Shown here: piece by piece, positions 11,819 through 38,570 of the stretch | Position numbering within the stretch: the stretch's first letter is position 1 | How the letters are laid out: the number at the start of each line of letters is the position of its first letter | NCBI RefSeq assembly: GCF_030122845.1 | Contig: NZ_CP126084.1 | Span: 1,550,001 to 1,614,000 of the forward strand | Length of the DNA stretch: 64,000 bases | Reading direction: 5' to 3' | Source of the DNA: Paenibacillus woosongensis | GTDB lineage: Bacteria; Bacillota; Bacilli; Paenibacillales; Paenibacillaceae | Notes under the pieces: model-generated | Seen by the model: the letters and a program-made list of their open reading frames with translations, nothing else | What the model was told of the DNA's origin: nothing | Databases searched by the model: none | Made by a program: the position numbers and the translations under genes

Positions 11819-12910
11819 TCAGTCTTGAATTTTATCTCGGTCATATAAATATCTCGCGAAATCCATAGGCCGCTGATACGTATCTTTCCAAATGCCTGTC
11901 AATCCGGCCTTTCTGAAACCGTAACGCTGATCTCTGCCATTGCATTCGATGAAATAGAGCTGCCCTTTCTCAGTCAAGCCAATGTCGATCCCGATGTCTG
12001 CGAGCAGAGGGAGGCGTGAGGATAAATGCTTCGCTATGGTGAGCGATACATATTCTACATGGTAAAGGATATCCGGTACCGTTTTTGGGGGAAGACATTG
12101 CGCCAGCACTTCTACGGGATATGGCTGTCCCCCTTTGCCAAGGTTAGAGAGAAAGCTGTTCATGGGAGCGATCTTGACGAACATCCCAGTGATGCCCCAT
12201 GTGCCGAAGGCGCCGCGCTGAACGGTAACGCGCAGGTCTAGCGGCCTGGCATCGTATTCAGCAAGCGGAATGCGCTGCTGTATGAGATAGGGGGTTTGGA
12301 CGAACCTGCGATGAAGCCATGCCGGAACATTCTCTTTGGCGATTCTGTCCGTGATCCATCCTCTCTTTGTTTTGCCAGGGTACATTAACTTCCAGGTCGC
12401 ATCGTCCCGCCGGATTCTCATAATTCCGTAGCCGACCGAACCGCGTACAGGCTTCAGCACAAGATCATCGTATTTCGCCATCATTCTTCGCAGAGAAGCG
12501 GGAGAAGCTTCTGCGGTTTCCGGAAGATATTCCGATAGACGAGGGTCCTCCTGCAAGATACGGTGGATGACGTTTTTTCCATAACGGTTGTTTACGTTAA
12601 AGATGCAAACCCCTTGCGATATAAGGGAGTTGATTTTACGGTGCGAGCCTGCATCCTTGTAGAGAGCACGGTTATGAATGACCCTCGGCGTAGGGATCGT
12701 CTTTTTGACATAATCGTAGCCATCCTGTACGTACGCAACACTTCTGTTTGATCCGGTATCGATATCCCCTAATCTCAGAAAGCAAGGAATGAATCCGTTT
12801 GCCCGCGCCGCCTCTTCATAATTAGCTATTGATTCCTGGCCGGTTTTACGCTGGGGAATTCCCCGGTACATGCTGGAGTTTAGCAGAATACCGACACGGT
12901 CTTGCCCCAT
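11819..12910 (-). CDS. YheC/YheD-family spore coat-associated ATP-grasp protein
   Basis: A 363-residue protein of the YheC/YheD family, which in Bacillus associates with the endospore coat. It has an N-terminal domain, then an ATP-grasp fold: KPVRGSVGYGIMRI (glycine-rich loop), IQQRIPLAEYDARPLDLRVTVQ, and the metal-binding end LYFIECNGRDQR. ATP-grasp enzymes join a carboxylate to a nucleophile, and the substrate here is unknown. The start ATG follows GGAGG. It is divergent from the first gene of the spore glycan cluster. The upstream minus strand contains CATAAATTA, which matches the sigma-K -10 pattern. Confidence 0.88.
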   Translation of the reverse strand: MGQDRVGILLNSSMYRGIPQRKTGQESIANYEEAARANGFIPCFLRLGDIDTGSNRSVAYVQDGYDYVKKTIPTPRVIHNRALYKDAGSHRKINSLISQGVCIFNVNNRYGKNVIHRILQEDPRLSEYLPETAEASPASLRRMMAKYDDLVLKPVRGSVGYGIMRIRRDDATWKLMYPGKTKRGWITDRIAKENVPAWLHRRFVQTPYLIQQRIPLAEYDARPLDLRVTVQRGAFGTWGITGMFVKIAPMNSFLSNLGKGGQPYPVEVLAQCLPPKTVPDILYHVEYVSLTIAKHLSSRLPLLADIGIDIGLTEKGQLYFIECNGRDQRYGFRKAGLTGIWKDTYQRPMDFARYLYDRDKIQD

Positions 12911-12945: not shown

Positions 12946-12954
12946 TAATTTATG
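12946..12954 (-). promoter_or_regulatory. Sigma-K-like -10 element upstream of YheC/YheD gene
   Basis: On the minus strand the bases read CATAAATTA, a full match to the CATANNNTA -10 pattern of mother-cell sigma-K promoters. An AC dinucleotide lies 18 bases upstream, close to the expected spacing. The rest of the 200-base divergent region holds a hairpin (GCCTGTTTT...AAAACAGGC, about 12996-13023). Confidence 0.4.
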
Positions 12955-13112
12955 TGTAATGTCCTAAAAAGCGTGGACGACTGTGCTGTAGCAACAGCCT
13001 GTTTTAGGGCGAAAAACAGGCTGCAGGATGCTTTCTGGGGTTATTAACCTTACCGGAGGAATATGCATATTTTGGAATGTGGGTGTAATTTTGCGGGGAG
13101 GAAGCGGATCGA

Positions 13113-14270
13113 ATGAGCAGACTAAAAGTAGCGGTCATTACGCCAGGAACCTTTATGATTCCATCAGGACATAGCAGCTCCGTCGAACGGGTAATCGAGA
13201 AGGTGGCTTCATTGGCTGCAAGCGAACTGGATATTCGAATATTCGGCTTATCGGACGGTCAGATCCAAAGCCCGGGGAGCCCGGCATCTATCCCTTGCTT
13301 TCGCATGCCTGGCGGCAGGTTATATTTAACTTCGCTGCTGAGCCACTTGAGAAAGTGGCATCCTGACCGGATCGATGTTCATAATCGCCCATTGCTTGCT
13401 TATCAATTGAAGAGCAGGCTGCCGATGGCCAAGGTATTCCTGACCTTTCATTCAACAACTTATTTTTCTGCCTCCTATCAGTCGGCTGCAGGGATGCGCT
13501 GTTTATTGGATAAGGTGGATCGAATCATCGTGAACAGCGAATTTTTGCAGCAGGAGCTTCGTCGGCGTTTTCCAGCGCTTCAGACGCCGGTTTCCGTTAA
13601 TCCACTGGGGGTAAGTCTCGAAGATTTCACGCCGCGATGGACCTCGCCCGGTGAATACTTAAGACAGGCCAGGCTTGCGGATTTGGGGTGGAGGCAACGT
13701 AAAATTATTCTGTTCATCGGCCGCTTGCTGCCTTCCAAGGGAGTTCATCATTTGCTGAAGGCTCTGCCTGCAATTTTGCAGCAAGAGAAGGATGCGATGC
13801 TCGTTATTGTAGGCGGCGCATATTACGGAATCAACCGGGAGAGTCAGTATGTCAGGCGACTGAAAAGAATGGCGGAGTCGCTTGGGGATAGAGTGGCGTT
13901 TCTTCCGTATGCACCTTATCCAAGCGTTGCCGATTGGTATAACTTGGCCGATCTTGTGGTCGTTCCGTCCGGGGAAGAAGAGGCCTTCGGTTTGGTCAAC
14001 GTTGAGGCGATGGCTTCGGCGGTTCCTATCGTGGCCAGCCGGGCTGGAGGCATCCCCGAAGTCGTCATTGATGGAGAATCTGGCATGCTCCTTCCGCCGG
14101 CTTCGATACCCAAGGATCTGGCGAAGGGCATTGTTGCTATGCTTGGCAGCGAAGAGATGCGCAAGAAGATGGGGCGGGCAGGCCGGGAGCTGGCGCGCCG
14201 CAGGTTTCGTTGGCAGCATACTTCGGCCCGTTGGGTCCGCTTGATGAAAGGCCAGAAGGCAAGCAGGTAG
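13113..14270 (+). CDS. GT4-family glycosyltransferase (CotSA-like)
   Basis: A 385-residue GT-B fold enzyme of family 4. The N-terminal acceptor domain begins KVAVITPGTF, and the linker is followed by the donor-site motifs ILFIGRLLPSKGVHHLLKAL and EEEAFGLVNVEAMASAVPIVAS (the E-x7-E nucleotide-sugar motif). It transfers a sugar from a nucleotide donor. The closest named analogue is the spore-coat protein CotSA of B. subtilis, which pairs with YheC/YheD-like genes nearby. The start ATG has GGGGAGG upstream. It is a single-gene unit ending at a strong terminator, at the left border of the glycan cluster. Confidence 0.88.
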   Translation: MSRLKVAVITPGTFMIPSGHSSSVERVIEKVASLAASELDIRIFGLSDGQIQSPGSPASIPCFRMPGGRLYLTSLLSHLRKWHPDRIDVHNRPLLAYQLKSRLPMAKVFLTFHSTTYFSASYQSAAGMRCLLDKVDRIIVNSEFLQQELRRRFPALQTPVSVNPLGVSLEDFTPRWTSPGEYLRQARLADLGWRQRKIILFIGRLLPSKGVHHLLKALPAILQQEKDAMLVIVGGAYYGINRESQYVRRLKRMAESLGDRVAFLPYAPYPSVADWYNLADLVVVPSGEEEAFGLVNVEAMASAVPIVASRAGGIPEVVIDGESGMLLPPASIPKDLAKGIVAMLGSEEMRKKMGRAGRELARRRFRWQHTSARWVRLMKGQKASR

Positions 14271-14336: not shown

Positions 14337-14465
14337 TTCCGGACGGAAAAGGACTGTACGTTTGCCGTTGCAATGCCCCCCTGCAAACATACACTGTAAA
14401 AGGTAGTACAAAAAGCCCTATTCGTTCTCCGATGCAGAAGCAGCTGGGACAGGGAGGTGAATAAC

Positions 14466-15281
14466 ATGCTTAGGAAACGCAAGCTGGCACGCCGCTCAGC
14501 GCGGCAGATCCCATACTACAAACGGCCCAATTGGCGCGTGACAAATCATCCAAACCCAGCAGTGTCTATCATTGTTCCAGCGATGAACGAGAGAAGTACA
14601 TTAAAGGGCGTTCTCTATGAAGCTCGCAGGGTTCATCCTCGCAGCGAAGTCATCGTCGTGGCTAACGGATCGACGGATGGAACAGAAACCTTGGCCAGGA
14701 GATGCGGCGCCCGCGTCATCGCGGCTGCGGAGCCGCTCGGACATGATGTTGGACGCCGTGTCGGCGCTGAGGCTGCAAGAGGACAAATATTATTATTTAT
14801 TGACGCTGATATGGTTATTCCTGCTAGGGAGCTTCGGCCCTTCATTAAGGCGGTACACGAGGGAGTGGACGTGGCTTTGAACGATTACTCGGGGCTCATG
14901 GCAGGCCGGGAAGTTCATCCCGTCGTGTTGGCTAAATTTTCGCTGAATGCCATGCTGGGCCGATCCGATTTGAAAGGAGCTTCCCTGACGGCGGTTCCTC
15001 ATGCCATGAGTCGCAAGGCGATCGAAGCCATTGGGTATAGCGCGCTGGAGGTGCCGCCGCTGGCCCTGGCAATTGCGGTGCTTCGAGGATGCAAAGTAAA
15101 AGCCGTGCACGCCATTCAAGTCGGCAGAATAAATCCGGTTAAATACAAAAACAGGAGAGCTGATCCGCTAATCAGCCTGATCGCTAGAGATCATTTGGAA
15201 GCCGTGCATCGACTCATTCTAGAACAAGGCCCGCGTGGGGGATATGGGGACCTCGGACGCAGGCGAGACAAGGTGAGGTGA
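14466..15281 (+). CDS. GT2-family glycosyltransferase with basic N-terminal tail
   Basis: A 271-residue GT-A fold enzyme. Residues 1-25 are rich in Arg and Lys (LRKRKLARRSAR). The catalytic core follows with SIIVPAMNER, ANGSTDGTETL and the metal-binding FIDADMVIP. GTG 14457 lies inside the AGGGAGGTGA ribosome site, so ATG 14466 is the start. Its closest relative in the window is the next gene: the two share GHDVxRxxGAxxAxG, NAMLGRSDLKGxSLTAVPHAxSRxA and an RDHLEA-like end, so they are a tandem duplication. The basic tail recurs in other enzymes of this cluster and is probably a localisation signal. The acceptor is unknown. Confidence 0.85.
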   Translation: MLRKRKLARRSARQIPYYKRPNWRVTNHPNPAVSIIVPAMNERSTLKGVLYEARRVHPRSEVIVVANGSTDGTETLARRCGARVIAAAEPLGHDVGRRVGAEAARGQILLFIDADMVIPARELRPFIKAVHEGVDVALNDYSGLMAGREVHPVVLAKFSLNAMLGRSDLKGASLTAVPHAMSRKAIEAIGYSALEVPPLALAIAVLRGCKVKAVHAIQVGRINPVKYKNRRADPLISLIARDHLEAVHRLILEQGPRGGYGDLGRRRDKVR

Positions 15282-15286
15282 GAGGC

Positions 15287-16390
15287 ATGCAGAGAAGAAA
15301 ATACGAAATGTTGATAAGCAGGCGGCGCTCTGCCGATCAATTTCAAGTCCGAAGACGCCCCAGCCATCAGCAGCGGAAAAGAGCTTCAAAACCGCAAATG
15401 AAATCCAGAATGAGATGGGAAGAGCTTGAGGAGAAGGCTTATTGTGCCGGTAATGCCGCGGCTGTATCGCAGATGGAAAACCCGCACTCGTATGAGCATA
15501 TGCAGACTTCCTATAAGGAATGGTATGGGGAAAAATGCAATAAAACACTGCCTTGGCGAAGCGTGCTGGCCATTTCGAATGCTTACCGCCGCGGGTACAA
15601 CAGGATTGCAAAGCAGACGGTACATGGAATTCCGTTGCCGCTGTATGGGAAGGCGTCAGCGGTTGTTTCTGCCTGCAATGAGGGGAGCACGATTGCAGCC
15701 GTTATAGCTGAATTGCTTCGGCTGCCCATTCAGGAAATTATCGTCGTACTGAACGGGTGCAAGGATGGCAGCTTTCGTTCAATCGAAAGCAATGAGCGAG
15801 TAACGGTAGTAAGCTACCCTGAGAGGCTGGGGCATGATGTGGCCCGCGCTATAGGAGCCTCGCTTGCTAGCGGCGATACCGTGTTGTTCGCGGACGGCGA
15901 CATTGTCCTTGCTGCTGAGGACTTTGCTCCATTTCTAGTGGAAGCCGAAAATGGGATTGATGTGGTTCTGAATGACATTTCCCCCTACTTGCCGCCATTC
16001 TCCAAACAGGATGCTGTGACCCACAGCAAGATGTTTCTTAACTATATGCTGGGGCGCCCCGATTTGAAGGCAAATTCCTTGACCGCTGTTCCCCATGCTT
16101 TGTCCCGGCGGGCCCTGGCTTCTCTTGGAACCACAGCGCTAATCGTGCCGCCGAAGGCACAGGCGCTGGCGATCGCGCAGGGATTGAAGATCCGGGCTCC
16201 ACGCCCGGTGGATGTGGTGAGAAACAACCGGCTGCGCAGCGGAAATGTCGGCAACGGAAATGAAGTATCCCGGCTGATCCTTGGCGATCATATCGAAGCG
16301 TTTGAAGCAGTAATGCGCCTGCAGGGGCGCAGACTGAATATGACAAGGCTGCCGCGCAGCGAGCTGGCTAGAAAGAGGAATGGCAGATGA
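15287..16390 (+). CDS. GT2-family glycosyltransferase with long basic N-terminal extension
   Basis: A 367-residue paralogue of the preceding enzyme. About 115 extra N-terminal residues include an Arg/Lys-rich stretch (residues ~2-42) and a degenerate form of the aromatic-x-x-Gly repeat (NAYRRGYNRI, ~106-115). The catalytic part has SAVVSACNEG, VLNGCKDGSF and FADGDIVLA. ATG 15287 is chosen, with AAGGTGAGGTGAG upstream. GTG 15278 overlaps the previous stop and is less likely. It overlaps the next gene by ATGA, so the three genes from 14466 are probably cotranscribed. Donor and acceptor are unknown. Confidence 0.84.
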   Translation: MQRRKYEMLISRRRSADQFQVRRRPSHQQRKRASKPQMKSRMRWEELEEKAYCAGNAAAVSQMENPHSYEHMQTSYKEWYGEKCNKTLPWRSVLAISNAYRRGYNRIAKQTVHGIPLPLYGKASAVVSACNEGSTIAAVIAELLRLPIQEIIVVLNGCKDGSFRSIESNERVTVVSYPERLGHDVARAIGASLASGDTVLFADGDIVLAAEDFAPFLVEAENGIDVVLNDISPYLPPFSKQDAVTHSKMFLNYMLGRPDLKANSLTAVPHALSRRALASLGTTALIVPPKAQALAIAQGLKIRAPRPVDVVRNNRLRSGNVGNGNEVSRLILGDHIEAFEAVMRLQGRRLNMTRLPRSELARKRNGR

Positions 16391-17892: not shown

Positions 17893-17928
17893 ACAATCAC
17901 CATAATGAGTGAGAGGAGGAAGCATATT

Positions 17929-18972
17929 TTGGATAGAATGCACAGCAGACGGGCAAGGCGCCGAAGGCGTAATTGGAACAGGGCAAGACGCCGCACAAGG
18001 ACGGGGAAGCGAACGCCGTCACGGAACCGGTCGAGCATAGCAAATGGACGGCTTCCCGTGGAATCCTCTTTTGCGCCTTCGTCCGATCCTCTCGAAGAGG
18101 ATATAGCTATATCAGGGAAGGCCGCAGGCTGCAGCTATGACGAAGGTTACCGGCAAGGTTATTATGAGGGTGGTGAAGCCAAGGTTGAACGTCAGCTCCC
18201 TCCTTACACCTTGCTGCCGGATCTTACTATAGATGACGTAATTGCCTTGGGGATTCAGCAAGTAACAGCGTCGCTCGTTCCAGTCATGTCTCCCACGGCA
18301 GTATGTGCGGCAGTCATTCGTGCTCTGGAACAGCGGCAGCCGTTATCAGTCATACGTCTCGGCGACGGGGAAGTCCTCACCTTGGCACATGATATGATCA
18401 TTTCCGTGGAAGAGGCCAAGCTTTTGGGGCCATTCCTTCCCTACGCGGGAGTAACACTTCCTGATACGGCTGCCCGCCGCTCATTGGCGGAATCCATCCG
18501 CCAAGCGAATATCGTTGGAATTCCCGTCTCTCGTCATCCTTCGTTCCAAGGTTTGTTATTTCCGGCCTTGAATCAGCACGGCATATCCCACCGTATGCTG
18601 AGAATGACTTCCTCTACGGTGAACTATGCCTTGCATGAACAAGGATTGCTATCTCGAATGCTTTCCGGGCGGCAGCTGCTTCTTATCGGAAATAAGGCGG
18701 CCGGATTAGCGGACGTGCTAGGCAGCCACGGTTTGGAAGTTACCGGAATCATCACTCCGGTTAAGGGAGTGCATGACGTGCAGCGGATTATAGAACAAGC
18801 CGCTTCGATTGAATTTGATCTTGCCTTGGTAGCAGCCGGGGTAGCCGCTGTTATGATTTGCACGGCCATCGCTCAAGAATTAGGCAAGGTGTCATTTGAC
18901 ATAGGGCATTTAGCAGATCGGCTGGTGAGCGGGGGGACCTTTTTGCTGCCGGGAGTGGAGGTGAACGGATGA
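17929..18972 (+). CDS. GT-D-fold glycosyltransferase with Arg-rich tail and aromatic-x-x-Gly repeat
   Basis: A 347-residue protein. Residues ~7-35 are extremely basic (RRARRRRRNWNRARRRTRT). An acidic linker leads to a repeat, YDEGYRQGYYEGG at ~70-82. The C-terminal ~230 residues contain SVIRLGDGEVLTLAHD, the G-D-x-E type metal motif of GT-D (DUF1792-like) glycosyltransferases. TTG 17929 is the best start, with GAGGAGGA eight bases upstream. ATG 17905 has no ribosome site. It overlaps the next gene by ATGA. The basic tail and repeat are shared with other enzymes in this locus and suggest docking. The sugar is unknown. Confidence 0.78.
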   Translation: MDRMHSRRARRRRRNWNRARRRTRTGKRTPSRNRSSIANGRLPVESSFAPSSDPLEEDIAISGKAAGCSYDEGYRQGYYEGGEAKVERQLPPYTLLPDLTIDDVIALGIQQVTASLVPVMSPTAVCAAVIRALEQRQPLSVIRLGDGEVLTLAHDMIISVEEAKLLGPFLPYAGVTLPDTAARRSLAESIRQANIVGIPVSRHPSFQGLLFPALNQHGISHRMLRMTSSTVNYALHEQGLLSRMLSGRQLLLIGNKAAGLADVLGSHGLEVTGIITPVKGVHDVQRIIEQAASIEFDLALVAAGVAAVMICTAIAQELGKVSFDIGHLADRLVSGGTFLLPGVEVNG

Positions 18973-20321
18973 GCCGAGGAAGGTATCTGCCTCTGCGCCG
19001 GGCTGTGCAGAAGGAACGGGCAGAGGCGATTAGCCGCTCAAAGCGGAAATCTGCTGTGGAGTATCGGGCCGGATTTCAGGCCGGTTACCGGCTTGGGGTA
19101 GAGGAGGGGCAGCGCACTTTTGCCATTCCTTTTGAAGGCACGAGCATTGTTATTCCTACTTATAATCAAAAAGAACTGCTTCTGCAGTGCATAGACAGTA
19201 TCGAAGCTCATACAGAGCAGCCCTATGAAATTATCGTCGTTGACGATGGCTCTTCAGATGGAACAACTGAGGCGCTGCAGAGGCGAAGGGGCGCGATTCG
19301 CGTCGGCAGCCATCGCAAGAACTTAGGATTTGCTAGCGCTGTAAATACTGGATTGATGATGGCCAAGGGGCAAAAGATCGTGCTGTTAAATAACGATGTT
19401 ATCGTGTCTGAACGCTGGCTTAAGCAAATGCTCGCCGTACTGGAGAGCAATCCGAATGCGGCGATCGGTCCGGTTACGAATTATATCGGCGGCGAGCAGC
19501 AGATAGATACTGATTATGTCAGCCGATCGGAAATGGAATCTTTCGCGGCGAATTACAATGTGGCGGACAGATCCAAATGGCGGGAGACCGATCGGCTTGT
19601 AGGCTTTTGTGTATTGTTTCGACGTGAGCTATTTGAAGAGGTTGGCTATTTCGATGAGGGATTTGAGATTGGCAACTTTGAGGATGATGACTGGATGCTG
19701 CGCCTGCGGCTGCAGGGCAAGCATTTAATTATTGCCGGGGATACATTCGTCCATCATATCGGAAGCGTGACCATGAAGGGGCTCGGCGAAGATCGATATT
19801 TAGTCGTGAATCACAGGAATGAGAGCCTCTTCCATGAAAAATGGGGAAAACCCTTTGAACTTCTTCAACGTTTGAATACCCAAAAGGGCAGGCTCTGCCA
19901 TCGTAAATCCAGTGATTTTTTTCCGACGCATGTCTGGGTGGAAGGGGCTGGGAGGCTATTTTGGCTGGAGCACGGTGTTAAATACCCGTTCATTGATGTG
20001 CCGTCCGGTAACATGCCGAATAAGCCGACTAGGCTATCGGTCATTGATTTGGTACAAATTCCTACGGGAACCCGGTATTCAAGGGGGAAATCCGCTTATC
20101 AGGAAAAAGGATTTGTGCGGGAGGGGGCGGTAGTTCGGTGCGGGAACGGTTATTTATATCAAGTCGATCAAGGCCGCCTGCGAGAAATTGCTTCGGATTA
20201 TGCTTGCGGCCAATGGGGTCTATCTATCGAGCCGGATCCTATTTCACCAGAGGAGTTGAGAAAGTTCGAGGAGGGCGTGCCGATCCTGCCGCCTCCCCGA
20301 TTGAAGTCGGAGGATCTATAA
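18969..20321 (+). CDS. GT2-family glycosyltransferase with docking repeat and extra C-terminal domain
   Basis: A 450-residue three-part protein. The N-terminus is basic and contains YRAGFQAGYRLGVEEG (residues 32-47), the same repeat seen in other cluster genes. Residues ~55-300 are a GT2 core (SIVIPTYNQKE, VVDDGSSDGTTEAL, LLNNDVIVSERWL, NFEDDDWMLRLRLQG). The last ~140 residues form a separate domain (HVWVEGAGRLFWLEHGVKYPF ... VVRCGNGYLYQVDQGRLREI) that looks beta-rich and may recognise an acceptor; I do not recognise it. The start ATG overlaps the upstream stop. Confidence 0.85.
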   Translation: MSRGRYLPLRRAVQKERAEAISRSKRKSAVEYRAGFQAGYRLGVEEGQRTFAIPFEGTSIVIPTYNQKELLLQCIDSIEAHTEQPYEIIVVDDGSSDGTTEALQRRRGAIRVGSHRKNLGFASAVNTGLMMAKGQKIVLLNNDVIVSERWLKQMLAVLESNPNAAIGPVTNYIGGEQQIDTDYVSRSEMESFAANYNVADRSKWRETDRLVGFCVLFRRELFEEVGYFDEGFEIGNFEDDDWMLRLRLQGKHLIIAGDTFVHHIGSVTMKGLGEDRYLVVNHRNESLFHEKWGKPFELLQRLNTQKGRLCHRKSSDFFPTHVWVEGAGRLFWLEHGVKYPFIDVPSGNMPNKPTRLSVIDLVQIPTGTRYSRGKSAYQEKGFVREGAVVRCGNGYLYQVDQGRLREIASDYACGQWGLSIEPDPISPEELRKFEEGVPILPPPRLKSEDL

Positions 20322-20443
20322 ACCCCCATTCATAGCAGTAACGGCGAGGGCCAGCCTCGCATATGCTGGAACAGATGAAGCCGGGACCGATGCACAATCA
20401 AACCTTGTACCCGGCATAATTGAGTAAAGTAGGGGGAATCCCG

Positions 20444-20731
20444 GTGGAACAGAAGATCACAGAACTCATCATTCATATGTCCCACTCGCATGCGCAAATC
20501 GCGCGAATCCTCGATGCGGAGAGGCAGGTTGCCGTGCGAATAGCGCAGATTATTCATGCTATTCCTGATGCTGAACCGGCTTTCGATGGAACCGACGGGT
20601 TGATTGAAAGCGCGGGGCGCATTAACAAGAGCGTTGTCTCCTATTTGAATTCAATTGCCGAGCTGCAGGATGCCATGGCGGAAAATTTGGAGCTCGTGGT
20701 CAAGGAGTTAAAAGATCAGGATGAAGAATAG
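20444..20731 (+). CDS. Small helical protein A of a three-gene paralogous set
   Basis: A 95-residue, probably all-helical protein of unknown function. It starts at GTG 20444, because AGGGGG lies seven bases upstream. Core features are HAQIARILDAERQVA near residues 16-30 and a second amphipathic stretch, LNSIAELQDAMAENLELVVKEL, near the end. The next two genes repeat the same two-part pattern, so they are diverged tandem copies. No enzyme motif, signal peptide or membrane segment is visible. The position between glycosyltransferases suggests an adaptor or coat-assembly role, which is an inference. The 120 bases upstream hold only a weak CATAGCAGT element. Confidence 0.7.
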   Translation: MEQKITELIIHMSHSHAQIARILDAERQVAVRIAQIIHAIPDAEPAFDGTDGLIESAGRINKSVVSYLNSIAELQDAMAENLELVVKELKDQDEE

Positions 20732-20754
20732 GTTGCTAGAGTGGGGATGATATC

Positions 20755-21105
20755 ATGAGCAGAGAACAGTCTTTTATGAATGTGTTGGATGCAGCAGCCA
20801 AGGTTCAATGGAATGTGGCTATGATTTTAGAGGCAAAGGCAGTAGAGGTTGAAAAAGCGCGGAATTGGATTATAAACCATGTGCATGGGGGGAGCTTCGA
20901 AAGCCACGAGAAGATGCTGTCGGAACCGCTCGATATTCATGAACAGCTGGTTGAAGTGATAGACGGGTTAACTAAGCTGCAGAACGGTTTTAACGGTAAT
21001 TTGAAGGCTGTGCTCAAATCCGATGAGGATGAGTCGGGCTCTGCCGATGGCGGATTTGACGGATTATTCAGCGGTTCCTTTGATTTGGAGGACTCGGGTA
21101 AATGA
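20755..21105 (+). CDS. Small helical protein B of a three-gene paralogous set
   Basis: A 116-residue protein of unknown function. Residues ~15-35 (AAKVQWNVAMILEAKAVEVEKA) match the first helix of its neighbours, with the common pattern A-x-I-L-E/D. The second helix is VIDGLTKLQNGFNGNLKAVLKS. The C-terminal ~25 residues are acidic and Gly/Ser-rich (DEDESGSADGGFDGLFSG) and probably disordered. GGGGATG precedes the ATG. The stop region overlaps the next gene by ATGA, so B and C are translationally coupled. Confidence 0.7.
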   Translation: MSREQSFMNVLDAAAKVQWNVAMILEAKAVEVEKARNWIINHVHGGSFESHEKMLSEPLDIHEQLVEVIDGLTKLQNGFNGNLKAVLKSDEDESGSADGGFDGLFSGSFDLEDSGK

Positions 21106-21455
21106 CAGCGGGTATCGGCTCTGTCGAGGCATCTAAGCTGCGGCTGATAGATTCGATTGCTAGGAGCCAAACAGCGATGGCGCGAATTTTGGACAGTCTG
21201 GCGGATGTGACGGATCATTCGGCTGAGACGGCCCGCCGTTTAGCTCATAATATCCAAGTTCTGGCCAGGTATCAGCAAGCCATTGCGCAAACGGTATGCG
21301 GTATTACACTGCATCAAGTAAACTATGGAACTCCTTCAATGCCTTGGATTATGGATTCTTGTTACCCGGCAAACATCGCAGCCCGAGGAGTACGGGAGGA
21401 TTTAATCCATGTTAACGATCAAGACCCGGCGAAAGCGCCGTACGAAACTGGTTAG
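21102..21455 (+). CDS. Small helical protein C of a three-gene paralogous set
   Basis: A 117-residue protein of unknown function. The first ~75 residues carry the shared pattern (SIARSQTAMARILDSLADV, then NIQVLARYQQAIAQTV). The last ~40 residues (MPWIMDSCYPANIAARG...) are unrelated and overlap by 47 bases, in another frame, the start of the next gene. The tail may therefore be under constraint from two readings. It is coupled to protein B by ATGA. Conserved function is unknown. Confidence 0.66.
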   Translation: MTAGIGSVEASKLRLIDSIARSQTAMARILDSLADVTDHSAETARRLAHNIQVLARYQQAIAQTVCGITLHQVNYGTPSMPWIMDSCYPANIAARGVREDLIHVNDQDPAKAPYETG

Positions 21456-21771
21456 AAGAAGAACAGGTATAAGGGGCAAACACAAACGATTAGTTAGACG
21501 CAGACGCAGGCATCTTGTCCGGAAATCGGGCCACAGAATCAGGCGTGGGCGATCGCGGCGAAAAAAAACGGCCGTTCCGCCGGCCCGCGCTGTAACTTCC
21601 CCAGCAGGGATTCCAGTGCAAGAACTACCAGTTGCTTTGCCAGCGCCCTCGGTACATGATCCGGCCTTGTTTCAACAGGCCTATGATGAAGCCTACCAGG
21701 AGGGATTCAATTCGGGATTCTCTAAAGGCTTTGAAGATGGCCATAAATTATCTTATAAGAATAGAGTTTGA
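21409..21771 (+). CDS. Stand-alone basic/docking-repeat protein (possible scaffold)
   Basis: A 120-residue protein made only of accessory modules. Residues 1-53 contain 29 Arg or Lys (for example RRKRR and VRRRRRH). Residues ~54-82 are a Pro/Ala/Val linker. Residues 92-111 are a four-turn repeat (AYDEAYQEGFNSGFSKGFEDG). It has no catalytic domain. The start ATG has GGGAGGA nine bases upstream and lies inside the end of the previous gene. The same two modules occur attached to glycosyltransferases in this cluster, so this protein may be a scaffold or competitor for the same partner. The basic part could bind DNA, acidic polymer or the coat surface. Confidence 0.72.
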   Translation: MLTIKTRRKRRTKLVRRRTGIRGKHKRLVRRRRRHLVRKSGHRIRRGRSRRKKTAVPPARAVTSPAGIPVQELPVALPAPSVHDPALFQQAYDEAYQEGFNSGFSKGFEDGHKLSYKNRV

Positions 21772-21776
21772 CTGTA

Positions 21777-21825
21777 AGCGGGCTATTACTCCGGCACTAC
21801 CGGGAAGGCCCGCTTTCTCGTGGCA
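21777..21825 (+). terminator. Intrinsic terminator
   Basis: AAGCGGGC pairs with GCCCGCTT around an inner CCGG...CCGG hairpin, then TTCT. It ends the transcript carrying the three helical proteins and the basic protein. Confidence 0.7.
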
Positions 21826-21921
21826 TTCGCCAATTTATGAGGGTTCCGGGTAGTCGTCCATGATGCACATGCCCTCCAAGCATATATTTATACAGACCTA
21901 GGAAATTTCAATATAGATAGG

Positions 21922-23019
21922 ATGAATGCCTTGGAAAGCTTAAATAATCCGGATACTAGCAAAGCCTACCAGGATGGGTTTCTTGAGGGCTATAGGTTCG
22001 GCGGGTGCCAGGCTGTTCTGGAGCGAGTCTCTAAGCAAGAATCGCCTAGCAAAAGCAAATGCCGCGTTCTCTATGTTCCTCAAGGCTTCGAGGCGATCGA
22101 TCGCGGGGTAGCGGAGGCGCTAAGCGAGCTGACGGAAGAGTCCGCCGTGGCCGCCCCTGGGTCCGCATTGGCTATGGCGGTCTCCTTCCGCCCTGACTTG
22201 GTCCTCGTAATGAATGGTCTCCATGTATTTCCTCCTGAGCATGAGGAGCAAATCCAGGCCATCCGCGGGCTGGGAATCCGTACGGCGATATGGTTTGTCG
22301 ACGACCCCTATTTTACGGATGATACGGTTAGGATAGCTCTAGCCTATGATGAAGTATTTACGCATGAACTGGAATGCGTCGAGCTCTATCAGAGAATCGG
22401 CTGCCGGAGGGTTCATTATCTTCCGCTTGCGGCGAATCCGCAAATGTTTCGCCCGGTGCGTTCTTCACTGCAATATCATTACGATATCTGCTTTATCGGC
22501 AATGCTTTTTGGAACCGAGCAAAGCTATTTGATCAGATGGCTTCTTACCTGCAAGACAAAAAAGTGTTCATTGCGGGGCAGCATTGGGAGCGCCTGGCTA
22601 ACTACGGCCTGTTGTCCAGGTTTATTAGCAACAAATGGATCGAGCCAGAAGAGACGGTGTCGTACTATAACGGGGCCAAAATCGTTATTAATCTTCATCG
22701 TCCTACGGAGCCCGGATCGGATAACCGGAATGGGCTGAATATTCCCGGGGGCTCAATTAATCCCAGAACCTATGAGATCGGCGGATGCGGAACATTGCAA
22801 ATGACGGATTGCCGGAGCGATTTGACACTGCATTATAAACCAGGGCATGACATTGAGACTTTTGCTGATGCGGCTGAACTTCAAGCTAAAATCGATTATT
22901 ATTTGAGCCACGATCATGAACGTATCCAAATGGCCTGGCGCGCCTTGTGGACGACTCGATCCAAGCATACGTTTCATCGGCGTATTACAAGTTTGCTTGC
23001 TGCATTGCAAATCAAGTAA
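21922..23019 (+). CDS. CgeB-like glycosyltransferase with docking repeat (1)
   Basis: A 365-residue protein of the CgeB family, GT-B-type enzymes linked in B. subtilis to late spore surface maturation. Residues 16-28 carry the repeat YQDGFLEGYRFGG. Family landmarks are RTAIWFVDDPYFTDD, THELECVELYQRIG, DICFIGNAFWNRAKLFD, AKIVINLHRPTEPG and NPRTYEIGGCGTLQMTD, the last forming the nucleotide-sugar site. Only a weak ATAGG precedes the ATG. CATATATTT occurs 33 bases upstream as a possible sigma-K-like element. It is followed by a paralogue. Confidence 0.85.
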   Translation: MNALESLNNPDTSKAYQDGFLEGYRFGGCQAVLERVSKQESPSKSKCRVLYVPQGFEAIDRGVAEALSELTEESAVAAPGSALAMAVSFRPDLVLVMNGLHVFPPEHEEQIQAIRGLGIRTAIWFVDDPYFTDDTVRIALAYDEVFTHELECVELYQRIGCRRVHYLPLAANPQMFRPVRSSLQYHYDICFIGNAFWNRAKLFDQMASYLQDKKVFIAGQHWERLANYGLLSRFISNKWIEPEETVSYYNGAKIVINLHRPTEPGSDNRNGLNIPGGSINPRTYEIGGCGTLQMTDCRSDLTLHYKPGHDIETFADAAELQAKIDYYLSHDHERIQMAWRALWTTRSKHTFHRRITSLLAALQIK

Positions 23020-23056
23020 GCAACTAGCGACGCGATAATCAAGAGGGAGTGACGAT

Positions 23057-24190
23057 ATGTTCGTTCATTCGGATTTACAATCAACGGCTATACGGGAAGG
23101 AGAAGCTCATGATTCAAGCAGGAGGGGAAGGGAGGCTGGGTTAAAGCATGGCTTCGAGGAGGGATATTTACGCGGGCGTGCAAAAACGATCGTGGAGGCA
23201 GCCCCTATTCATTTCCCGAAAAGAGCTTTAAAGGTTCTCTATGTATCCTCAGGCAAGGGCTTCCCTTATGCTCCCATCGATGAGGCTATTATTGCCACTC
23301 TCCAAACGCTGGCAGCAGAAGTGAGCGTGGCGGGGCCCAAGCAGCCGGTGTCGGAACTTGTGTCGAGCTCTTTGCCCGATTTGATGCTTGTACTGGATGG
23401 GATGGAGCTGCCTGTAGAACAAGTAGACGCGGTACGTGCTAAAGGGATTCGAACCGCTATTTGGCTGACGGATGATCCTTATTACACGGATATAACCATA
23501 AGAACTGCGCCTCATTATGATTATGTATTTACCCTGGAGCGCAATTGCCTGGATTTCTACCGTTCTGCAGGGTGCAACAATGTACATTATTTACCTTTTG
23601 CAGCTCATGTAGGCCATTACCGCCCCACGTTAACCCGTTCCCCTGTTCGGCGTGCAATCAGCTTTATCGGCTCGGCCTACTGGAATCGGATTGAATTTTT
23701 GCAGCCGATCATTGGCGGCCTCATGGAAAAGGGCTTAACGATTAATGGAATTTGGTGGGACCGGCTGCCTGAATATGCATCCTATCCAGACCGGATTGAA
23801 ATTGGAAAATGGATGGGGCCTGGCGAAACGGCAGAAGTATATAGCGGCTCAAAAATCGTGCTGAATATGCATCGTTCTCCTTATGATACGACCGTGAATA
23901 ACAATTCGGTCGGCCTTACGGCCGCATCTCCCAACCCCCGGACATTTGAAATCTCCGCCTGTGGAACATTGCAGCTTGCTGATGTGCGGGATGACTTGGC
24001 CAGCTTCTATATTCCAGGCCAGGAAATCGAGACCTTCAGCAATCCAAGCGAGCTGTACGACAAAGTTAATTTTTATTTGGATCATGAGACGGAGCGGCGT
24101 GAGATTGCGCTGCGCGCTTTGGAAAGAACGTATCGCGAGCATACGTATTCCCACCGACTTCATGAAATGCTCAGCCGGATATTTGGTTAG
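23057..24190 (+). CDS. CgeB-like glycosyltransferase with docking repeat (2)
   Basis: A 377-residue paralogue of the upstream gene. It shares RTAIWLTDDPYYTD, SFIGSAYWNRIEFL, SKIVLNMHRSPYD and NPRTFEISACGTLQLAD. The N-terminus contains GREAGLKHGFEEGYLRG (residues ~24-40), another form of the aromatic-x-x-Gly repeat. GAGGGAG lies well placed before the ATG. Tandem duplication with divergence of the acceptor-binding half suggests the two enzymes act on successive or alternative sugar acceptors. The substrate is unknown. Confidence 0.85.
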   Translation: MFVHSDLQSTAIREGEAHDSSRRGREAGLKHGFEEGYLRGRAKTIVEAAPIHFPKRALKVLYVSSGKGFPYAPIDEAIIATLQTLAAEVSVAGPKQPVSELVSSSLPDLMLVLDGMELPVEQVDAVRAKGIRTAIWLTDDPYYTDITIRTAPHYDYVFTLERNCLDFYRSAGCNNVHYLPFAAHVGHYRPTLTRSPVRRAISFIGSAYWNRIEFLQPIIGGLMEKGLTINGIWWDRLPEYASYPDRIEIGKWMGPGETAEVYSGSKIVLNMHRSPYDTTVNNNSVGLTAASPNPRTFEISACGTLQLADVRDDLASFYIPGQEIETFSNPSELYDKVNFYLDHETERREIALRALERTYREHTYSHRLHEMLSRIFG

Positions 24191-24253: not shown

Positions 24254-25705
24254 ATGTCAGAATTGAAGAAGCTGTTGTTGTTCTCGCATATTTGCAACAA
24301 GAGGAATATTACAGGAGCGGAGAAGCTGCTGCTCTTTCTGGCCACGAGATTATCGCCTTATTTCCAGTGCGTCATCGTTGTTCCCAAAGAAGGCCTGTTA
24401 ACACGGCTAGCCGACAGATGCGGAATAAGAACGATTGTACAGAATATTCCGCTCCTATACGGAATGTGTTTGCCTCATGAAGGTTTAGCGCAGCAAGCCG
24501 ACGATTTGCTGACGGGAGCAGCGTTTAAAGAAACTTCCCGGCTTCTAGCCGCAGAACGGCCGGATTATGTACTAGTTAATACCAGCACCCACGTGGTCCC
24601 GGCAATGGCAGCCAAATCCATGGGTATACCTGTTATTTGGCATATTACCGAAGTGATTGCCAGCAACGAGTATACGGGAACTTCTATTCGAAATATCGAC
24701 CAGTACAGTGACTGGATTGTATGCATTTCGGAATCTGCAGCCGCTCCTTTAAGCGGTTGCTCTGCCGGGAAACTCAGTATCTTATTTCCTTCTTGGTCTT
24801 GGAGCGATTTTAACCCCCATATGTGGCCGCAGCTGCGCGAGCAGCAGAGACAGCAATGGAAAGTGAATTCTGATGATAGGGTGATTGGTTATATATCGTC
24901 CTATTTGATTCCTGAGAAAGGGCCGGATCATTTTATCGAAGCAGCCCTGATACTGGCAGGGCGATATGAGCAGAGCAAATTTGTGATTATCGGCGCTGAA
25001 GCGAACAACTCGTTCTATCTTAAGCTTCGGCAAAGGATCACCGAGTCCCCTTATGCGGAACGGTTCATATTTATCGATTATGTGTCAGATATCGAATCAG
25101 CATTCAGCGCGATGGATGTGGTTATTGTCCCCAGTATGAAGGAGGAAGGCTTCGGCCTAACGGCAATGGAGGCTATGATCATGGAAAAGCCGGTCATTGC
25201 TTATGCATCCGGAGGCCTGGAAGAAATATTACGATTTACAGGAAACCAGCCGTTTCTCGCTCCTGTCGGAGATTATTCCGAGCTTAGCGCAAGAGTATCC
25301 CGGTTCCTTGATGAGCCGGGTTTAATAGAATCCGTCGGCCGCAGCAACCGAATTCAGATTGAAGCCTGCTTCGGTCCTGAGGCTTATGAAGCTAATCTGC
25401 AGGCCATGTTGAACCACATTGGCGGCGGGACTTCTAGTGCGGTCCCTGTGGCAGATCCGCCTTCGCTCCGCCCCGTACGATCGAGTCCAAAGACTCGGCG
25501 CAGGGCTAAAAAGGCCAGGCTGTTGCCTTCTGCGCGAAAACGGCTGCAGAGCATAAAGAGCCGAAAGCTCGTCATGAACCCGAAGCGTCTAAAACAGGGG
25601 CGTAAGGGGAGCAAGGCTCGAGTGAAACCCGGAGCGCGGAGTATACGCTCCATCCGGCGGGTTAGCCCTATGCGAAGAAGAAGAAAAGATAAGAAGAGAC
25701 TGTGA
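24254..25705 (+). CDS. GT4-family glycosyltransferase with long Arg/Lys-rich C-terminal tail
   Basis: A 483-residue GT-B enzyme. The donor-site motif KEEGFGLTAMEAMIMEKPVIAYASGG identifies family 4, and GYISSYLIPEKGPDHFIEAA precedes it. After the catalytic part (~residue 395) comes a tail of about 80 residues packed with Arg and Lys (KTRRRAKKAR, KRLKQGRKGSKAR, ending RRRRKDKKRL) with no hydrophobic content. The same kind of tail occurs at the N-terminus of other cluster enzymes, so the module is portable. The start ATG has AAGGAGAGG upstream. It is followed closely by the sugar-nucleotide cassette. Confidence 0.86.
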   Translation: MSELKKLLLFSHICNKRNITGAEKLLLFLATRLSPYFQCVIVVPKEGLLTRLADRCGIRTIVQNIPLLYGMCLPHEGLAQQADDLLTGAAFKETSRLLAAERPDYVLVNTSTHVVPAMAAKSMGIPVIWHITEVIASNEYTGTSIRNIDQYSDWIVCISESAAAPLSGCSAGKLSILFPSWSWSDFNPHMWPQLREQQRQQWKVNSDDRVIGYISSYLIPEKGPDHFIEAALILAGRYEQSKFVIIGAEANNSFYLKLRQRITESPYAERFIFIDYVSDIESAFSAMDVVIVPSMKEEGFGLTAMEAMIMEKPVIAYASGGLEEILRFTGNQPFLAPVGDYSELSARVSRFLDEPGLIESVGRSNRIQIEACFGPEAYEANLQAMLNHIGGGTSSAVPVADPPSLRPVRSSPKTRRRAKKARLLPSARKRLQSIKSRKLVMNPKRLKQGRKGSKARVKPGARSIRSIRRVSPMRRRRKDKKRL

Positions 25706-30868: not shown

Positions 30869-30907
30869 TGAAAAATCTTGAATGCCGCCTCGGAAAGGAT
30901 GAGGCTA

Positions 30908-37316: not shown

Positions 37317-38570
37317 ATGCGAATAGCCAAAGTTGTTAGCTTGTCTTTGTCGGCAACGCTTATTGCCGGAATGGTCGGATTAACGGGCTGCGGGACTAGA
37401 ACCGATAATACGAACATGCGATCTCAAAGCGTCCGCAACAACGGAAATTACGACGTGAATTCCCTGAGAACAGGCGATCGGAATTTCACGCGGAGTCTTG
37501 GCAACGGTCAAAGCGAGCGTATCAACTCGTTGAAGTACAGCCCAGCTTTGAGCAACAAAGTAGCGCAGATGCGTGAGGTTCAATCGGCCCATGTTGTGGT
37601 TACCGATCGTGATGCTTATGTTGCGGTAACCCTTCATGGACAAGGCCATCAAGGTACCGGTACAAGAGCCAGTGGAGTTAATCAAGGCACTACAAGATAT
37701 GGAAATCAAGGCATGGGCAATTATGGCATGAGAAGTACAGGTACGGGTACAACAGGTCTTGGAAGAACTCCAGGTACTTTCCCTAACGGAACGGCTGGAT
37801 TTGGTACGGGAACTGGTTACGGTTATGGAACGAGAACGGGGACTGGCCTTGGAAACGGTACAATAGGATACGGCCCAGGTACTGGCATGGGATTAGGTTC
37901 GACGGGTTATGGCACAGGTACGGGAACTGGGACAGGTGTTGGAGCAGGGACTGGAACCGGGTACGGAACAGGATATGGTACGGGATACGGGACTGCTGGT
38001 ACTGGAAGGAACTATGATGGGCTTGGCGGAGGACTAATGGGCCGTTCTGGTGTAGCTGGAAGTTTGTTTGATACGACTACCCGCGGGAACAGAGGGGTAA
38101 ACGGAATGAATGGCGGCACTGATGGGATGATTGGAATGAAGAGTACGCGCAACAGAAATACGGTGGATGGCGTTGGAACTACTCGCGGTCTTGGCACGGG
38201 AACTGGGACGGTGGTTGATAACGTGCCACAAAGCGTTAAGGACCATATTTCCAGCGTTGTCAAGAAAACGGCTCCCCATATTCGCAATGTGCACGTATCC
38301 GGTAATCCGGAGTTCATGACCCACGTTAGCAACTACGCGACACAGCATCGCACCGGTGGTACTTTGCAGGGGCATGTAAGAGATTTCGAGCATATGGTTA
38401 ATCGAATCTTTCCAGGACGTGCTGGTACGATGACAGGTCCGAGCGGATACAGAAATACGGGTACCGGAACAACTGGCACTGGAACGACGGGTACAGGCAC
38501 GGGCATGTCCGGTACTACCGGCACAGGAACCGGCAGCGGTACAGGCTTCTCGGGTGGAGTAACCCGATAA
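37317..38570 (+). CDS. YhcN/YlaJ-type sporulation lipoprotein with Gly-Thr repeat insert
   Basis: A 417-residue lipoprotein with a lipobox ending LTGC (Cys25). Residues ~75-110 hold the first half of the YhcN/YlaJ fold (VAQMREVQSAHVVVTDRDAYVAVTL), and residues ~300-365 hold the second half (VKDHISSVVKKTAPHIRNVHVSGNPEF). Between them lies a low-complexity region of about 190 residues rich in G, T and Y (GTGTG, YGTG units), and a second Gly-Thr tail ends the protein. The family is found on the spore membrane or cortex and is linked to germination. The insertion is unusual for the family and is encoded by imperfect GGTACxGGxAC-type DNA repeats. Confidence 0.84.
   Translation: MRIAKVVSLSLSATLIAGMVGLTGCGTRTDNTNMRSQSVRNNGNYDVNSLRTGDRNFTRSLGNGQSERINSLKYSPALSNKVAQMREVQSAHVVVTDRDAYVAVTLHGQGHQGTGTRASGVNQGTTRYGNQGMGNYGMRSTGTGTTGLGRTPGTFPNGTAGFGTGTGYGYGTRTGTGLGNGTIGYGPGTGMGLGSTGYGTGTGTGTGVGAGTGTGYGTGYGTGYGTAGTGRNYDGLGGGLMGRSGVAGSLFDTTTRGNRGVNGMNGGTDGMIGMKSTRNRNTVDGVGTTRGLGTGTGTVVDNVPQSVKDHISSVVKKTAPHIRNVHVSGNPEFMTHVSNYATQHRTGGTLQGHVRDFEHMVNRIFPGRAGTMTGPSGYRNTGTGTTGTGTTGTGTGMSGTTGTGTGSGTGFSGGVTR

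Follow-up and report, generated by a model that had tools for sequence, protein, structure and literature searches.

A glycine-ladder helix common to glycosyltransferases and a small basic protein in Paenibacillales: a candidate docking tag of a probable spore-coat sugar cluster

Why do glycosyltransferases of unlike fold, encoded side by side in one bacterial gene cluster, carry the same short repeat of glycine and aromatic residues? The question is raised by a 64,000-nucleotide stretch of the Paenibacillus woosongensis genome (RefSeq assembly GCF_030122845.1, contig NZ_CP126084.1, positions 1,550,001 to 1,614,000, forward strand), here called the window and numbered from its first letter. 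Five proteins of the window contain the repeat: a GT-D enzyme, a GT2 glycosyltransferase, a stand-alone protein of 120 amino acids, and two CgeB-like proteins, CgeB1 and CgeB2. An earlier reading made without database searches (the sequence-only reading) regarded the repeat as a docking tag for one scaffold. The answer that we favour with modest confidence, by analogy with FliH and with Yae1/Lto1, is that the repeat is a helix-pairing tag that would dock the four enzymes on the stand-alone protein, a basic adaptor.

The repeat and its carriers

The repeat unit consists of a glycine followed by three further residues (GX3), and most of the glycines carry Tyr or Phe directly behind them. All segments named in the sequence-only reading are present in the open reading frames (ORFs) to which they were assigned: YRAGFQAGYRLGVEEG at residues 32-47 of the GT2, AYQEGFNSGFSKGFEDG at residues 95-111 of the stand-alone protein, YQDGFLEGYRFGG at residues 16-28 of CgeB1 and LKHGFEEGYLRG at residues 29-40 of CgeB2. 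These four positions agree, with residue 95 as the start in the stand-alone protein; the GT-D segment, YDEGYRQGYYEGG, occupies residues 78-90 of the longest ORF rather than about 70-82, a shift of eight residues. The glycine ladder of CgeB2 begins before residue 29 and comprises G24, G28, G32, G36 and G40. The window proteins have three to five GX3 units, the stand-alone protein having five.

Five different folds had been proposed for the five proteins. CgeB1 and CgeB2 both score above the Pfam cut-offs for DUF3880 and Glyco_trans_1_2 and belong to one family; the tag therefore sits on three enzyme folds, not five, namely GT-D, the GT-A fold of the GT2 family and GT-B, the last modelled for CgeB1, and on one domain-free protein. 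The GT-D enzyme is a member of PF22882 (257.5 bits against a cut-off of 27). No domain was found in the stand-alone protein besides weak repeat matches to the Yae1_N and FliH models.

In all six frames of the window, the pattern Ar-x-x-G-Ar-x-x-G-x-x-x-G (Ar, aromatic residue) is confined to the tagged proteins; in CgeB2 Leu replaces the first aromatic residue and the two-unit form of the pattern is satisfied. The position following the glycine (x1) is Tyr in 65% and Phe in 26% of the cases, hence Tyr or Phe in 91%, and the other positions are mostly polar. The polarity of the tags, with a mean hydropathy of -0.81, and their Tyr/Phe at x1 rule out a transmembrane GxxxG helix. A sequence search returned no solved structure that shares the repeat (best expectation value, E, 6.2), and no description of such a tag was found among the papers searched on Paenibacillus CgeB, on spore glycan or on GxxxG motifs in glycosyltransferases.

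Conservation and restriction of the repeat

The ladder was counted over all Paenibacillales loci in distinct N-terminal segments, and the expectation was obtained by shuffling. It lies ahead of the catalytic core in 87 of 87 CgeB1 segments (7.5 expected), 89 of 89 of CgeB2 (8.1 expected), 62 of 63 of the GT2 (7.5 expected) and 47 of 53 of the GT-D enzyme (4.5 expected). In CgeB1 (n = 43) G19, G23, R25, G27 and C29 are invariant and both flanks vary freely; mean column conservation is 0.73 in the tag and 0.70 in the catalytic core, against 0.32 and 0.42 in the flanks. A weaker form of the repeat, AYRRGYNRI, had been ascribed to a further GT2 at 15287 (ORF 15278-16390). It consists of a single unit, [YF]xxGY, which is itself conserved among the orthologues; the ladder occurs in 2 of 68 of them (2.6 expected), no more often than in shuffled sequence, and this protein was rejected as a sixth carrier.

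A profile of 19 columns built from the five segments matched, at E<0.01, exactly the five carriers in the 5.29-Mb genome. The next-best matches were a 26-codon frame (E 0.03) and FliH (E 0.2), followed by an unrelated frame roughly 790-995 codons long (E 0.4) and one of 73 codons (E 0.8). A degenerate DNA pattern picked up that unrelated long frame as well, together with a low-complexity run of GY and matches in non-coding DNA. Chance or low complexity as the origin of the repeat is ruled out by the genome profile and the shuffles. In each of 40 genomes of the genus (40/40) the profile gave one to five matches, nearly all within one syntenic stretch.

A scan of 84,980 species genomes yielded 202 confirmed relatives of the stand-alone protein, of which 80 were kept for locus analysis (from Paenibacillus, Fontibacillus and one Paenibacillaceae metagenome-assembled genome). 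Among the 6,597 ORFs of these 80 loci, profile matches of at least 12 bits were restricted to the five families; the stand-alone protein, by which the loci had been fetched, reached this score in 80/80 and the other four families in about half, and orthologues below 12 bits retain the glycine ladder in nearly all cases. Neither of two outcomes that would have spoken against a docking tag, a repeat common in unrelated proteins or absent from orthologues of its carriers, was thus encountered. Among 398 genomes of the phylum few matches fall outside Paenibacillales; read individually, they were FliH-like proteins, small Clostridia-type repeat proteins and one copper-amine-oxidase-like protein. 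Four loci (L215, L219, L221 and L224), apparently of Clostridia-type genomes, encode proteins of about 100-137 amino acids with many aromatic GX3 repeats that resemble the stand-alone helix.

Twenty syntenic stretches show, with some gaps, the order GT4, GT2, GT2, GT2, nucleotidyltransferase, GT-D (tagged), GT2 (tagged), three small proteins, stand-alone protein (tagged), CgeB1 (tagged), CgeB2 (tagged), GT4. CgeB1 and CgeB2 are nearly always adjoining paralogues, both of them tagged. The stand-alone gene precedes CgeB1 or follows CgeB2, depending on the family, and its adjacency is usually kept.

The repeat might be an inherited or compositional feature without a role in pairing, for example an N-terminal helix for folding of the core that was spread by duplication. 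The tags of CgeB1 and CgeB2 probably go back to one gene duplication, and the tag parts GGCQAV and GGEAKV are alike in CgeB1 and the GT-D enzyme. We nevertheless consider this explanation very improbable: three folds and a domain-free protein share the tag, neither the CgeB homologues from outside the order nor those of one Paenibacillales family have it, and the same cluster contains untagged glycosyltransferases (at 13113, 14457, 16387, 24254 and 29545, with a Glyco_trans_1_2 protein at 30878).

Co-occurrence of tagged CgeB proteins and the stand-alone protein

Among 298 genomes of the order, CgeB1 homologues were found in 243 and the stand-alone helix in 236; both were present in 228, CgeB only in 15, the stand-alone helix only in 8 and neither in 47. 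The eight genomes with the stand-alone helix only gave weak matches (E 6e-6 to 0.04). Four of the 15 genomes with CgeB only, all from one Paenibacillales family, have a CgeB that bears no tag, and a threshold as loose as E 10 gave no stand-alone match in them. The remaining 11 have a tagged CgeB, and in ten of them a divergent Lys/Arg-rich protein that ends in the repeat is encoded next door. For CgeB homologues from outside the order, almost every profile match begins after the position of the tag, and in the outgroup CgeB loci that were read neither a tag nor a stand-alone protein was seen; the apparent ladder of two outgroup loci (L272 and L273) lies ahead of the likely start codon. This co-occurrence of tag and stand-alone protein is a natural experiment that speaks in favour of a functional link. 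The docking idea gains from it, because genomes with untagged CgeB and no stand-alone protein were found and those with tagged CgeB nearly always have that protein adjacent.

Two observations on individual loci may be added. L255 and L256 encode, next to tagged CgeB genes, divergent stand-alone proteins that terminate in repeats such as AYSKGFKKGYEEGFQIGYEEGHRK, and in genome G237 one copy of CgeB is seemingly in two pieces (about 3480796-3481841).

Helix pairing and the proposed adaptor

In the AlphaFold single-chain model of CgeB1 (predicted local distance difference test, pLDDT, 89) the tag lies inside one continuous helix, residues 10-35, ahead of the GT-B core. A glycine at every fourth residue, combined with a stripe of Tyr/Phe, would let the tag helix lie close against a helix of the same kind. 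Each of the four enzymes contributes one copy of the tag ahead of its catalytic core, and the repeat helix of the stand-alone protein, acting as the adaptor, would pair with these copies. In the mother cell, the basic tail of the adaptor could then keep the enzymes together at an acidic layer of the forespore, most probably the spore coat as it develops. From these features we infer mutual binding of the helices, pairing of enzymes with the adaptor and the site of the complex.

Soluble helices with GX3 repeats are known from two systems. FliH, a dimer, contains an AxxxG(xxxG)n helix thought to serve in helix pairing; the residue behind Gly is preferentially Tyr, and GYxxGFxxG occurs at twice its expected frequency (PMC2674601). 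The tags share the aromatic-rich GxxxG repeat with FliH/YscL, and NCBIfam FliH models match 7/7 stand-alone proteins scanned, the window protein via its repeat region only. In contrast to FliH, none of the five proteins has the C-terminal PF02108 domain, which the genome's own FliH does match, and the repeat resides on glycosyltransferases and a basic protein, several carriers per cluster, and not on one self-dimerising protein. In yeast the GX3 repeats of Yae1 and Lto1 mediate a heterodimer that serves as a client-recruiting adaptor, and mutation of GX3 glycines in Lto1 decreased binding to Yae1 (PMC4523923). Pfam Yae1_N (PF09811) weakly matches 7/7 stand-alone proteins (best E 4.1e-6), the window protein remaining below the threshold with 20.4 bits against 27.5. 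Unlike Yae1-Lto1, the carriers are bacterial, those of the window have three to five GX3 units instead of ten, the clients carry the repeat themselves and no Fe-S protein is involved. Since either the domain or the cut-off score is missing, membership in the FliH or Yae1 family is not claimed; a soluble GX3 helix-pairing adaptor is the closest working analogy.

FliH dimerises with itself (PMC2674601), and the tags might likewise pair without a hub, in enzyme homodimers or among themselves (CgeB1 with CgeB2, GT-D with GT2), the stand-alone protein being a separate coat protein with the same kind of helix. The nearly constant adjacency of the two tagged CgeB paralogues is in keeping with such pairing, as is genome G140, which keeps both CgeB tags and has no recognisable stand-alone protein. 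This arrangement appears unlikely to us, because the stand-alone protein tracks the tagged CgeB across the order and, since no part of it beyond helix and basic tail is conserved, must work by way of that helix.

A third possibility is that the repeat is a localisation signal by which the five helices, instead of pairing among themselves, bind one other component, for example the trio of small helical proteins or a coat morphogen. Synteny links the three small proteins to the tagged genes in most loci, the first of them models as a long helical hairpin, and the basic tails of the stand-alone protein, the GT-D enzyme and an untagged GT4 suggest a shared siting. Yet in family f6 most of the 20-kb stretches that surround the tagged CgeB pair and the stand-alone protein lack the small trio, and GX3 repeats are known above all for pairing with one another; we rate a localisation signal as rather improbable. 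The sequence-only reading, a docking tag for one scaffold, is supported in part: the tag gains from restriction, conservation and co-occurrence with the stand-alone protein, and the three small proteins at 20444, 20755 and 21102 are tied to it by synteny only. We infer that the stand-alone protein is the better candidate for the scaffold.

Several points weigh against docking on the adaptor. Within the stretches the GT-D and GT2 tags were seen in only part of the order and are weaker or unseen in distant families; in some genomes the tagged GT2 is far from the remaining cluster (e.g. L229), or the stand-alone gene and CgeB1 are 7-36 kb apart. The structural support for the tag comes from a single-chain AlphaFold model, and the analogy with FliH and Yae1, whose family domain or score the proteins lack, rests on the repeat itself. 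The co-occurrence counts are uncorrected for phylogeny and the genomes are not independent, and in G140 the tags do without a recognisable partner.

A wider proposal, which we put forward tentatively and would not yet back at even odds, is an order-wide docking system dedicated to building spore-surface glycan: glycosyltransferases of three folds would bear a common helix code, and a small basic adaptor would read it and assemble the enzymes on the forespore surface. If true, this would amount to a scaffolded complex of glycosyltransferases with components recognisable from sequence. The wider questions are by what route glycans of the spore surface are built in the absence of a membrane carrier and what keeps several glycosyltransferases in order. 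On these, a helix of 13-20 residues common to four enzymes and one adaptor offers a direct, mutable handle, available in hundreds of genomes, and it may also yield a small orthogonal tag with which enzymes could be brought together. Besides FliH, it is a second bacterial setting of the aromatic GX3 helix.

Features of the locus

Table 1. Tagged genes, their repeats and neighbouring features in the window
Feature	Position	Strand	Basis
YheC/D-like ATP-grasp gene (spore-coat-associated family), divergent neighbour of the cluster	11819..12910	-	PF14398, E 1.6e-61
CATAnnnT upstream of ATP-grasp gene	12947-12954		Conserved in 34/34 loci
GT2 with single unit AYRRGYNRI, no tag carrier	15278..16390	+	Ladder test
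GT-D fold glycosyltransferase, Arg-rich N-tail	17905..18972	+	PF22882, E 9.8e-77; NF040628 (NCBIfam), E 2e-74
Tag of GT-D enzyme, YDEGYRQGYYEGG	18136..18174	+	Pattern; kept in orthologues
GT2 glycosyltransferase	18969..20321	+	Pfam PF00535, E 7.7e-33
Tag of GT2, YRAGFQAGYRLGVEEG	19062..19109	+	Pattern; kept in orthologues
CATAnnnT (-10, sigmaK/sigmaE type) upstream of small protein 1	20360..20367	+	Conserved
Small helical protein 1, untagged, syntenic	20444..20731	+	Helical-hairpin model; start is the ATG used by orthologues
Small helical protein 2, untagged, syntenic; C-tail acidic, Gly-rich	20755..21105	+	Synteny
Small helical protein 3, untagged, syntenic	21102..21455	+	Synteny
Stand-alone protein: Lys/Arg-rich tail, Pro-rich linker, C-terminal repeat helix; proposed adaptor	21409..21771	+	Conservation
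Repeat of stand-alone protein, YDEAYQEGFNSGFSKGFEDG, 5 units	21682..21741	+	Pattern
CATAnnnT (-10, sigmaK/sigmaE type) upstream of CgeB1	21881..21888	+	Conserved
CgeB-like protein 1, DUF3880 + Glyco_trans_1_2, GT-B fold	21922..23019	+	Pfam and model
Tag of CgeB1, YQDGFLEGYRFGG	21967..22005	+	Predicted continuous helix 10-35
CgeB-like protein 2, same family as CgeB1	23057..24190	+	Pfam
Tag of CgeB2, GREAGLKHGFEEGYLRG	23126..23176	+	Pattern; kept in orthologues

Ahead of its helix the stand-alone protein has a median Lys plus Arg fraction of 0.46 and an Asp plus Glu fraction of 0.01. Lys/Arg-rich, disordered-looking tails recur in most orthologues of the GT-D enzyme (17905-18130), of the stand-alone protein (21409-21600) and of the untagged GT4 at its C-terminus (25460-25700), possibly a common means of placing these proteins at an acidic layer. 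The stand-alone gene and CgeB1 share a reading frame, separated by a stop; between them, at 21774-21815, a GC-rich, hairpin-like stretch resembles a terminator by eye. The three small proteins (20444-21455) are consecutive, well conserved and probably helical. None of them reaches a Pfam family at cut-off, and their mutual homology is unsupported (hhalign probabilities 1-13%).

Sporulation context

The cluster is probably a spore-coat sugar gene cluster. CATAnnnT is the -10 type of promoters read by sigmaE and sigmaK in the mother cell. Upstream of small protein 1, mAC-N14..18-CATAnnnT occurs in 97 of 99 loci (1.4 expected); upstream of CgeB1, CATAnnnTW was found anywhere within 250 bp in 87 of 91 loci (9.8 expected) and within 20-140 bp in 85 of 91. 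These sporulation-type boxes are conserved far above chance, and the genes may belong to a late mother-cell (sigmaK/sigmaE) regulon.

In B. subtilis the cge genes contribute to crust morphology and surface properties (PMC7439481). The crust glycan genes of that organism (cgeAB, cgeCDE, sps, yfn) are comparable in comprising CgeB-family proteins and sugar-nucleotide enzymes. The CgeB homologues examined outside Paenibacillales lack the tag; a B. subtilis member of the family was detected, its N-terminus not being among those read. The neighbourhoods of the outgroup CgeBs that were read showed no stand-alone repeat protein. Neither a flippase nor a polymerase was noticed in the cluster, whose genes are followed by others resembling a UDP-sugar epimerase/dehydratase pathway.

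Further sequence elements accompany the cluster. A GTCCAYG box about 20 bp ahead of CATAnnnT is common to the CgeB1 and ATP-grasp promoters across loci (21855-21880 and 12955-12980) and might be a regulator site. The block CTGTACGTTTGCCGTT, conserved above 70% at most positions, lies upstream of the first GT2 (14457; block at about 14340-14400) and, here and at the orthologous sites, about 40-110 bp upstream of the gene, followed by CATAnnnT. At 37317-38570, 13 kb downstream of the cluster, a sporulation lipoprotein of the YhcN/YlaJ type (PF09580) is encoded, which contains a long insert of Gly-Thr-Tyr repeats.

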